NCBI GenBank assembly: GCA_949451605.1
Contig: CASTSB010000008.1
Location: 1 to 64,000, forward strand
Source of the DNA: an uncultured Bacilli bacterium
Lineage (GTDB): Bacteria > Bacillota_I > Bacilli_A > RF39 > UBA660
Direction: 5' to 3'
DNA: 64,000 nucleotides
Part shown: in pieces, positions 58,340 through 61,338 of the stretch
How the letters are laid out: each line of letters begins with the position of its first letter
Numbering within the stretch: position 1 is the first letter of the stretch
Translations under genes and position numbers: made by a program
Notes under the pieces: generated by a model
Told to the model about the DNA's origin: nothing
Database searches by the model: none
Seen by the model: the letters and a program-made list of their open reading frames with translations, nothing else

Positions 58340-58480
58340 TTAAGAAAAATAAAGAAATAAAAGTATTTTTCTTAAAAATATTCCAAAATAAATTCCATTT
58401 TCATATATAAATTTTAAAGCATAAGCAATTATAGGGAGTAAAGCAATAACTATTAAACAAGTAATTAATCTATTGAACAT
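58340..58480 (-). CDS. Small hydrophobic peptide, candidate immunity protein (peptide C)
   Basis: A 46-residue peptide read directly from the sequence. It starts MFNRLITCLIVIALLPIIAY and ends KILLFLYFS. It has one clear helix (about 5-25) and a second hydrophobic stretch (about 29-45) around a basic RK pair. It has no leader. GAAGG lies six bases before its ATG, and it overlaps the end of peptide B by 16 bases. Small membrane peptides downstream of class II bacteriocin genes are often immunity proteins; that role is inference. A 14-bp inverted repeat (58337-58350 with 58365-58378) lies at its 3' end. Confidence 0.6.
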   Translation of the reverse strand: MFNRLITCLIVIALLPIIAYALKFIYENGIYFGIFLRKILLFLYFS

Positions 58481-58641
58481 AGATTACCTTCACTTATTCT
58501 TCTTATAGCAGACCCAACACTATGTCCAGCATCAAATAATACTTTTATTATATTAGTAAATGCATTAACAAAACTAGATGTAAGAGTTGTGCCTGCTCCT
58601 CCCTTAATATTACTAAGTTCTAAATTACTAATCTTTTTCAT
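58465..58641 (-). CDS. Double-glycine leader peptide B (class IIb-like bacteriocin candidate)
   Basis: A 58-residue peptide read directly. Leader of 15: MKKISNLELSNIKGG, nearly the same as in peptide A. The predicted mature part is 43 residues, beginning AGTTLTSSFVNAFTN and ending EGNLCSID. It contains a GHSVG motif (residues 39-43, GxxxG), a basic RR pair, and one cysteine at 55. GxxxG motifs mediate pairing in two-peptide bacteriocins. Its ATG overlaps the stop of peptide A (ATGA), so translation is coupled. It could instead be a signalling peptide. Confidence 0.82.
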   Translation of the reverse strand: MKKISNLELSNIKGGAGTTLTSSFVNAFTNIIKVLFDAGHSVGSAIRRISEGNLCSID

Positions 58642-58784
58642 GATCTACATTTATCTGGATTTGTAAACCCTTCTATAACTCCTGAAATAAATACTATTAA
58701 AGCAGTTATACCAAGTGCAATCCAGCCATTAAAAGTAAATCCACCTTTAATATTACTAAGCTCTGTACTATTTAGTTTCTTCAT
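58638..58784 (-). CDS. Double-glycine leader peptide A (class IIb-like bacteriocin candidate)
   Basis: A 48-residue peptide read directly. Leader MKKLNSTELSNIKGG (residues 1-15) with LxxxELxxIxGG pattern for C39 cleavage. Mature part of 33 residues: hydrophobic, beginning FTFNGWIALGITAL, with GVIEG (35-39, GxxxG) and one cysteine at 46. A strong ribosome site GGAAGGAAGG lies just before it. It starts inside the last codons of the accessory gene (17-base overlap) and ends at the start of peptide B. Leader similarity of A and B and the adjoining C39 exporter make them the likely cargo. Confidence 0.85.
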   Translation of the reverse strand: MKKLNSTELSNIKGGFTFNGWIALGITALIVFISGVIEGFTNPDKCRS

Positions 58785-59196
58785 CCATACCTTCCTTCCA
58801 TATTACATTAAATATTTCAATTAATTTAATTTTTTCTTGAAAAATAGAAATTTTAATAAAATCTTTATCCTTGATATTATTTACTCCTTTATATTTTATT
58901 ATTAATTCATGATATTCTTTACCTTTTCTTTTCAATATACCTTTATTTACTTCTTTTATTTGATAAGAATATTTTTTATCCTTAATATAAAAAGTGCTAT
59001 TAGCTATAAATAATTTCAACTCATTAGAACTAACAACAAATTGTACCAAATTATTTTTAATAGAAATACCATTTAAAACAATATATTTGCTTATTTTGAT
59101 ATTAAATAATAAATAAACAAAAACACTCTCAATTATAAATACAAATACTATAAAAACTCTTATAAAATAAAAAATTTCATATTTTTTCTTACTCAT
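58768..59196 (-). CDS. Small membrane accessory protein of the peptide exporter
   Basis: A 142-residue protein: one membrane helix near the N-terminus (about 10-31, RVFIVFVFIIESVFVYLLF), then an extracytoplasmic, lysine-rich, probably beta domain. Gram-positive peptide exporters often work with a membrane-fusion protein of 400 or more residues with a long coiled coil; this protein keeps only an anchor and a short beta part. I do not recognise a family. Start 59196 is chosen because GAGG lies nine bases upstream, inside the exporter gene. It overlaps both neighbours. Confidence 0.62.
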   Translation of the reverse strand: MSKKKYEIFYFIRVFIVFVFIIESVFVYLLFNIKISKYIVLNGISIKNNLVQFVVSSNELKLFIANSTFYIKDKKYSYQIKEVNKGILKRKGKEYHELIIKYKGVNNIKDKDFIKISIFQEKIKLIEIFNVIWKEGMDEETK

Positions 59197-61258
59197 ACAC
59201 ATTTGCCTCTTTAAGGTTTAAAATTCTATTAAAATACTTTTTCCCATTTTGTCTATGACTTATTACAATAACAATCTTATCTTTTAAATATATAAACATA
59301 TCCTTAAGTATTTTATTAGTTAATTCAATATCTATTTGACCAAACGCTTCATCAAATATATAAATATTACTTTTTCTTACTAAACTCCTCGCAAGAATTA
59401 TTCTTTGTTTTTCTCCACTACTTAAGAAAAAGCCATTCTCTTCAATATTTTTTTTATAATTATTTAACTCATTTCCAAAAATTAAATTTACTCTAGTAAT
59501 TTTTATAATTTCCATGAATCTCTCATCACTAATTTCTTGATATAAACAAATATTATTATATATAGTATCTGTATATAAGAATTCATTAGAGCTAACATAT
59601 GTAATATACCTTCTTAAATTCTCTAAATGATAATGATTTATATCTATATTATCAATTTTAATCATACCAAAAGGAACTTCCACATATCTAAGTAACATCT
59701 TTACTAATGTACTTTTACCACTCCCACTACTACCAAAAAGTAAAACTTTATCACACCTATCAATAGTAAAAGAAACTCTATTAAAAATAATTTTATTATT
59801 AATTGAATAGTTCAAATTATTAAAACAAATTTTTCCATTCAAATTAAAAGGTAAAAAATAGTAGCTCTTAGAAAAGTCTTCACCTAAAATCATATATAAC
59901 TCTTCTATCCTATCTAAAGACACTAAATAGCTAGGAATCTCTTCTATAACTCCAGTAACTCCTTTAAAAACATTTAGAAAGTATTGAAAAAAAGTTTGAA
60001 AAATAATTAGATTTTCAATAGTAAGTTTATCTTTTATAACTAAATAACCTCCACAGCAACATATTAATACTAAAAGAATATTATATATAAATTTAGAAAA
60101 ACTAATATTGTTTTCTAAAAAACAACTATATCTATAATTATTATCGATTAAATACTTATATTTTAATAAAAATTTATCACTAAATCTTTTTTCTAGATGG
60201 CATCCCTTAGTAGTATCTGCACAAGATAAGGCCTCAGTTATAGTCATTTGTATATAGTCCTCCAGACTTTTAATATTCTTATATAATATTTTTCTCTTAT
60301 TAAATTTCAAATATTGAAAAGTACTTGTAAAAAGTATATAAATAAAAATATAAAAAGATAATTCTTTACTTATAACTACTAAAATAATAAGAAAAATAAT
60401 TAATGAGATTACATCAATAATAAAAGAAGACATAACTCTAAAGATGAAATTTTTAATAGTATTTAAATCATTAAATCTTGAAAGTATTTCTCCAGTTGAT
60501 CTATTATTATAATAAAAATACGGAAGTAAGAGTAATCTTTTATAAGTATTAAAAGTTAATTCAAAATCAAATATAGACATAATCTTAAATAATAATCTCT
60601 TTTGTAAATTACCAATAATTAATATTAGAATAATAATATATATTAAACAAATAAATAAAAGATAAATATTATTAGTTATTCCATAATTTATTGAAAAAGA
60701 AACAATATATTTAAAGTTAAAAGCAAAGATAATTTCTAAAATTAAAAGATTGAGGGTAAGTATGAATAAAAAGATATAATTGGATAAATTGGTTTTCAAA
60801 TTTTCATTTAACTTTTTTACTAAAAATCTTTCTTTTTTTAATATTGGCAATTTTTTTCTTGGCTTTAAAAATATATAATTATTTGATGACATTAGTCTAA
60901 ATTCAGAATGAGTTAGAAGTCTTTTCCCTTTTCCAGGATCCATAACTACAATTTTATCTTTTAGGATTTTATAAATAACCACAAAATGCTGGTAATTATG
61001 CTTTATGTTCACATGAGCAATACAGGGTAAGTTATTCTCTTCTATTTTATTCAAGTCGCCCATTACTCCATAAGCGTCCATTCCAACTATTTTAGCAGCT
61101 TCTATCAGATTATAAGCAGTAACTCCATCTCTACTAGTATTTGTTAATTTTCTTAAATATTCCTTAGACACATCTCCACCATAAAATCTAATAATACTAA
61201 GTAAAGAACAAATACCACAGTCCATCATTCCATCTTGTAAAACAACTTTTAACTTAAT
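59189..61258 (-). CDS. Peptidase-containing ABC transporter (PCAT) with apparent AUU start
   Basis: A 689-residue exporter that trims and secretes double-glycine peptides. C39 peptidase (1-135): oxyanion Gln8, catalytic Cys14 (MMDCGICSLL), His91 (YQHFVVIY), Asp107 (VVMDPGKG). Six membrane helices (about 150-440) follow. ATPase: Walker A FGSSGSGKSTL, signature LSSGEKQR, Walker B IYIFDEAFG, H-loop ISHRQ. The first ATG (61228) would leave out Gln8, which the peptidase needs. Upstream in frame, an ATT at 61258 lies nine bases after a perfect AGGAGGTG and gives KLKVVLQDGMMDCG. No other start codon exists between. AUU starts are rare and IF-3-sensitive. Confidence 0.88.
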   Translation of the reverse strand: MKLKVVLQDGMMDCGICSLLSIIRFYGGDVSKEYLRKLTNTSRDGVTAYNLIEAAKIVGMDAYGVMGDLNKIEENNLPCIAHVNIKHNYQHFVVIYKILKDKIVVMDPGKGKRLLTHSEFRLMSSNNYIFLKPRKKLPILKKERFLVKKLNENLKTNLSNYIFLFILTLNLLILEIIFAFNFKYIVSFSINYGITNNIYLLFICLIYIIILILIIGNLQKRLLFKIMSIFDFELTFNTYKRLLLLPYFYYNNRSTGEILSRFNDLNTIKNFIFRVMSSFIIDVISLIIFLIILVVISKELSFYIFIYILFTSTFQYLKFNKRKILYKNIKSLEDYIQMTITEALSCADTTKGCHLEKRFSDKFLLKYKYLIDNNYRYSCFLENNISFSKFIYNILLVLICCCGGYLVIKDKLTIENLIIFQTFFQYFLNVFKGVTGVIEEIPSYLVSLDRIEELYMILGEDFSKSYYFLPFNLNGKICFNNLNYSINNKIIFNRVSFTIDRCDKVLLFGSSGSGKSTLVKMLLRYVEVPFGMIKIDNIDINHYHLENLRRYITYVSSNEFLYTDTIYNNICLYQEISDERFMEIIKITRVNLIFGNELNNYKKNIEENGFFLSSGEKQRIILARSLVRKSNIYIFDEAFGQIDIELTNKILKDMFIYLKDKIVIVISHRQNGKKYFNRILNLKEANVYE

Positions 61259-61273: not shown

Positions 61274-61338
61274 ATTTATATATTTCGAAGTAAAAATAAA
61301 AATCATAAAAAAAAGTTATTTTTTTAATAAAAACAAAA

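Follow-up and report, generated by a model that had tools for sequence, protein, structure and literature searches.

What does a compact run of overlapping genes, coding for a peptide exporter, a small accessory protein and three very short peptides, do in an uncultured bacterium with a genome of 1.33 Mb? The genes lie in the window, the whole stretch of 64,000 nucleotides analysed here (contig CASTSB010000008.1, assembly GCA_949451605.1). It belongs to the GTDB order RF39, which has been described as uncultured and genome-reduced (PMC6784871). An earlier note on this DNA had proposed a two-peptide bacteriocin or signalling system; the class IIb-like traits and the exporter behind that proposal stand, and either function is one that we infer from sequence.

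The five genes and their products

The features of the cassette are given below with the evidence for each.

59189..61258, minus strand: exporter of the PCAT type (C39 peptidase, ABC transmembrane and ATPase domains) with an ATT start; Pfam, invariant residues, solved-structure relatives
58768..59196, minus strand: small accessory protein, one membrane helix and a predicted adaptor-type beta barrel; AlphaFold2, barrel alignment, profile
58638..58784, minus strand: peptide A precursor, 48 residues, GG leader, GxxxG, C-terminal PxxC; loci counts, alignment
58465..58641, minus strand: peptide B precursor, 58 residues, GG leader, GxxxG-xxx-RR, one C-terminal cysteine; loci counts, alignment, model
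58340..58480, minus strand: peptide C, 46 residues, no GG leader, membrane helix and a B-like stretch; profile-profile match, loci counts
61278..61307, minus strand: probable promoter box TATGATTT-N12-CGAAATATAT; position, T-rich/CGAA core

All five ORFs lie on the minus strand (58340-61258) in the order exporter, accessory, A, B, C, and every junction overlaps: by 8 bases when the accessory gene starts at 59196, its most likely start (14 bases if at 59202), then by 17, 4 and 16 bases. The earlier note had described this overlapping arrangement, and the ORFs and overlaps are found where it placed them. It was also right that the cassette holds no regulator and that the small genes fall below the usual gene-calling length. 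Because they are too short for routine annotation, the system is easy to miss.

The exporter gene begins with ATT at 61258, nine bases past a perfect Shine-Dalgarno site (AGGAGG), and in its orthologues an ATG, GTG or TTG codon opens the gene at about that residue. Together, these observations make the ATT start credible; a rare start codon is apparently used here. The protein matches PF03412 (1e-31), PF00664 and PF00005, and has the C39 peptidase, transmembrane and ATPase domains of a PCAT with their catalytic residues. Residues Q8, C14, H91 and D107 of the C39 domain, as well as the ATPase motifs, are invariant in 11 relatives. Among solved structures, PCAT1 and ComA, a competence exporter, come nearest; they share the same three-domain build and these invariant residues. 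In contrast, against the NCBI models for bacteriocin exporters the protein stays under cut-off; the top NCBI model, the mycoplasma Mbov_0121 family, is likewise under its cut-off. Pairwise identity of exporters is only 55-58% within the genus. When the A and B profiles were run against the window's genome, no other double-glycine cargo was found.

The accessory protein is 142-144 residues long (142 when started at 59196). Its AlphaFold2 model (mean pLDDT 92) has a single membrane helix followed by a beta barrel and ends in another helix. The barrel aligns with the membrane fusion proteins Spr0693, BesA, AcrA, CusB, MexA and MacA at Z 7-8, an alignment that is supportive and not decisive since unrelated barrels score similarly. 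On the basis of fold plus gene context, we predict an adaptor-type barrel without a hairpin. Like accessory proteins of the HlyD/LcnD type, it would place an adaptor-type barrel after a membrane helix; it differs from them by its length of only 142 residues, by its absence from some loci, and by a model that is helix-barrel-helix only, in which neither a coiled-coil hairpin nor a lipoyl domain was found. A match to Imm63 (E 0.01) was rejected, being under cut-off and at odds with the adaptor-like barrel of the model.

The GG-ending leaders and GxxxG motifs reported earlier for A and B were confirmed, and C likewise has GxxxG. Of the A, B and C peptides, 96%, 100% and 98% respectively contain the motif. 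Similarity between A and B is limited to the leader. Mature A is a hydrophobic helix of about 32 residues and mature B an amphipathic helix of about 40 (in the B model, a single helix at residues 22-51). Exactly one cysteine, near the C-terminus, is present in about 90% of mature A and B. To our knowledge, class IIb bacteriocins are not characterised by a cysteine conserved in both peptides. Peptide C carries a B-like [F/L]xxGxxxGxxxR stretch, and the profiles of B and C match each other (E 8e-7 across 28 columns), so that C looks like a leaderless B.

As in class IIb bacteriocins (TIGR03949, lactobin A/cerein 7B; NF038034, lactococcin G-beta), the two peptides are adjacent, with GG leaders and GxxxG-type helices, and they are accompanied by a dedicated PCAT exporter and an accessory protein. 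They differ from that class by their conserved C-terminal cysteines and by the absence of a constant immunity gene. The comparison with bacteriocin-family models that the earlier note had suggested gave a divided answer. Peptide A of the window scored 26.1 bits with NF038034 (cut-off 37) and 11.9 with TIGR03949 (cut-off 21.5), and its match to PF10439 was below cut-off. Peptide B of the window matched a leader model only, under cut-off, and all tested B peptides were under the class IIb family cut-offs; several A orthologues do pass TIGR03949. Since the window's own peptides fail the model, we do not file the cassette as a class IIb member, though some A orthologues would qualify. A search of the PDB gave no convincing relative of A or B. 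Three A peptides match the NCBI MPN313 family weakly.

Distribution and inheritance across the order

The genomes drawn from the order are all of one family, and exporter homologues occur throughout those sampled. The B profile was found in 178/193 family genomes (132/139 good ones; 137/148 genera) and in 183/193 order genomes (173/181 of good quality, about 95%), mostly as one copy. Those relatives that are named are uncultured genomes derived from metagenomes, and many bear the label of a gut sample (goat, sheep, rabbit or other).

The survey of gene content covered 92 distinct loci in which 1.1 kb or more of sequence lies downstream of the exporter. Profiles detected A and B in 92/92 of them, the accessory gene in 80 and C in 48; in 91, A comes before B. 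The A and B peptides of relatives are 30-71% identical to those of the window. The earlier note had staked its reading on conservation of the small ORFs and had proposed looking for the same gene order in related genomes; both were found. This conservation across the order also rules out chance ORFs. Eight loci consist of exporter, A and B with no further gene; because these relatives keep so little, the cassette of the window is not unusually reduced, contrary to the earlier description. As for the immunity gene expected of a two-peptide bacteriocin, C remains a candidate self-protection partner and is present in only about half of the loci.

The cassette lies upstream of rpsU in 54 of the 74 loci with 3.3 kb of sequence. 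Other sites are found before ftsA-ftsZ-like genes and, once, beside pilB and a pilin-like cluster. Exporter similarity correlates with that of yqeY (Mantel rho 0.69), A (0.49) and B (0.54), as vertical descent would give. Judged from these comparisons, the cassette belongs to the core of the order: nearly all genomes have it, and it is passed on vertically. A horizontally moving bacteriocin island is ruled out by the near-universality and the correlation with yqeY distances. What survives of the view of a stray bacteriocin is the exporter with two GG peptides and class IIb-like traits.

Matches of the B profile beyond the order, elsewhere in the class, cover only the leaders of unrelated peptides, none near a PCAT, and were rejected as homologues. 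Two other families of the class have a conserved GG peptide of their own, GGEAIT...VICYRLFMSS.G..TLPGG..F.W (L103, 7970-8149, minus; L108, 7782-7970, plus), and the surrounding 8 kb or so hold no PCAT. In small, Mycoplasma-like genomes of this class, a conserved GG-leader protein is encoded near uvrC, away from a PCAT (L099, 8039-8431, minus; L101, 7411-7698, minus).

A promoter box shared with competence genes

Upstream of the exporter, relatives have AAGGAAAT, 13-14 bases, CGAATRATAT and then the Shine-Dalgarno site. In an exact pattern search, the strong form (AAGGAAAT-N13-CGAATRATAT) was found in 13/193 genomes, at few sites each; the highest count was 8 in one genome, where the reversed pattern gave 0. 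Other copies are followed by comEA and then comEC (twice), by recA, by genes for PD-(D/E)XK nucleases and a helicase resembling UvrD, by a solitary GG peptide, and in one case by a spoIIAA-sigF-like arrangement of a STAS protein and a sigma factor.

A motif was trained solely on 105 exporter promoters, with the upstream regions of rpsU and yqeY as controls. Of 29 comEA promoters, 72% exceed the 95th percentile of the controls (p 5e-10). Sporulation control was considered because the box resembles a SigH site, and was rejected: spoIIAA promoters show no enrichment, with just 3 of 20 clear. One shared, drifting regulator predicts that the comEA and exporter boxes co-vary. Within the same genome, the two boxes agree at 17.2/25 positions, against 13.0 when shuffled (19 genomes, p 5e-5); TTTGGCAATATAACTAA and CTTGGCAATATAACTAA in genome G025 are an example. 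For the regions upstream of rpsU and yqeY, the same comparison yielded differences of 0.2-0.4 (p 0.19 and 0.07). In the window's genome, the comEA box (TATGAACT-N13-CGAATGATAA) and the exporter box, which was read by eye, the automatic best match having fallen elsewhere, are both weak relative to the order consensus and deviate from it in the same way. The box is weak in the window's genus as well. At pilB-type loci, no box was found.

A SigH-like sigma gene is present in the neighbourhood rlmB-sigma-orf-secE-nusG, and its product matches the PRK08295/SigH models best, far under cut-off. The interval between rlmB and secE-nusG is the position of sigH in Bacillus subtilis. The box is probably read by a sigma factor of this SigH/ComX type.

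The cassette and comEA are also lost together. comEA was found in 29/29 tested genomes chosen from cassette carriers and is missing in 8/18 without B. Among good genomes, it is lacking in 0/23 with B versus 5/10 without B (Fisher p 0.001), a figure that disfavours assembly gaps as the sole cause of the joint absence, to which they may contribute in part. Five good genomes keep comEA with no detectable B. As the box is shared and co-varies with that of comEA, the sequence evidence indicates that the cassette is part of the competence regulon of the order, a link missing from the earlier bacteriocin reading. Among the papers searched, none on competence in RF39 was found. The results suggest that regulated natural competence is ancestral in this abundant, uncultured, genome-reduced gut order, whose regulon can be defined by the promoter box that the cassette supplies.

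Three further observations concern the box. Genes for PD-(D/E)XK nucleases (Rpn-type, PF12784) are repeatedly found behind it (L206, L218, L225, L307; G079, G030), which suggests recombination nucleases in the same regulon as the cassette. It also precedes a spoIIAA-like gene in three genomes (L214 = G076:C1, L293, L304), with a sigma factor next in L214, hinting that the regulator touches sporulation in some species. Finally, a lone 41-residue double-glycine peptide lies right behind a box, away from the cassette (L215, minus strand, near 1500; G209:C13), and is a possible extra cargo of the exporter.

What the peptide pair might do

In our preferred reading, to which we give a probability of about one half, the cassette would be a competence-induced two-peptide killing system, CibAB-like, core and vertically inherited in the order. 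The SigH/ComX-type sigma factor would read the like boxes ahead of comEA-comEC and of the exporter. The C39 domain of the exporter would cut the GG leaders, and A and B would be exported, aided in most species by the small adaptor protein. Outside the cell, hydrophobic A and amphipathic B would pair via their GxxxG motifs, and a disulfide might link the one cysteine of each. The pair may then permeabilise the membranes of nearby non-competent cells, whose freed DNA would be taken up, and C, B-like and membrane-retained, may shield the producing cell at loci that have it.

The comparison is with two-peptide bacteriocins made late in competence, CibAB/CibC from Streptococcus pneumoniae and CabAB from S. 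mitis, which are under an alternative sigma factor and lyse neighbours (PMC5295010, PMC13059744). In common are two GG-leader peptides, a small third peptide, a competence sigma-factor regulon and PCAT export; the competence-type promoter is found order-wide and is weak in the window's genome. The likeness drawn here is one of organisation and regulation. The cassette differs in having its own exporter and adaptor, in being near-universal and vertically inherited across an order, in the one invariant cysteine of each peptide, and in a third peptide that is B-like and often absent. If our reading is right, it suggests that competence-linked predation extends beyond streptococci as a fixed, vertically inherited part of the competence programme. 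Against killing stand the roughly half of loci without C, the minimal loci without an obvious immunity gene, and a near-universal, slowly changing presence unlike that of most bacteriocins. The weak box of the window's genus, the pilB-type loci where no box was found, the five good genomes with comEA and no detectable B, and the conserved cysteines also count against our reading. The loci with exporter, A and B only make the question of self-protection directly testable.

Two other readings stay alive because the cassette is so nearly universal and because minimal loci have no immunity gene. A and B could be a competence signal pair exported in a ComA-like manner, with an unlinked receptor and a positive loop within the regulon. 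This is unlikely: ComA is among the closest solved exporters and the cassette belongs to the competence regulon, but known competence pheromones do not resemble two obligatory membrane-type helices with GxxxG, and the mature parts are not hypervariable, showing about the same conservation as the exporter. The cassette also has no receptor or histidine kinase, and no linked receptor kinase and response regulator of the ComC type were found in the cassettes or immediate flanks of the loci read.

In the other reading, which is rather doubtful as a whole, the order's core competence regulon includes an exported single-cysteine peptide pair with a membrane-retained paralogue, and the pair acts in DNA uptake itself and not as a bacteriocin. 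Its more specific form, in which A and B would build, for example, an exported heteromeric component of membrane or wall with ComEA/ComEC or an uptake pilus, and C would be a membrane-anchored partner, is quite doubtful. Near-universality in single copy, co-loss with comEA, the one cassette adjoining pilB and pilin-like genes, and minimal loci that would need no immunity gene speak for it; the five good genomes with comEA and no detectable B speak against it, and we know of no transformation machine that uses a PCAT-exported peptide pair.

The view of the earlier note, taken to mean that this is an ordinary two-peptide bacteriocin locus regulated on its own and unrelated to competence, accounts for the peptide pair, GG leaders, exporter, accessory and candidate immunity peptide but is very improbable, given a promoter shared and co-varying with that of comEA, absence jointly with comEA, and order-wide, single-copy presence by vertical descent.

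Some relatives depart from a single pair: two loci (L179, L192) seemingly have additional GG-peptide-like ORFs, and in another (L193) A and B are tandemly repeated behind the exporter.
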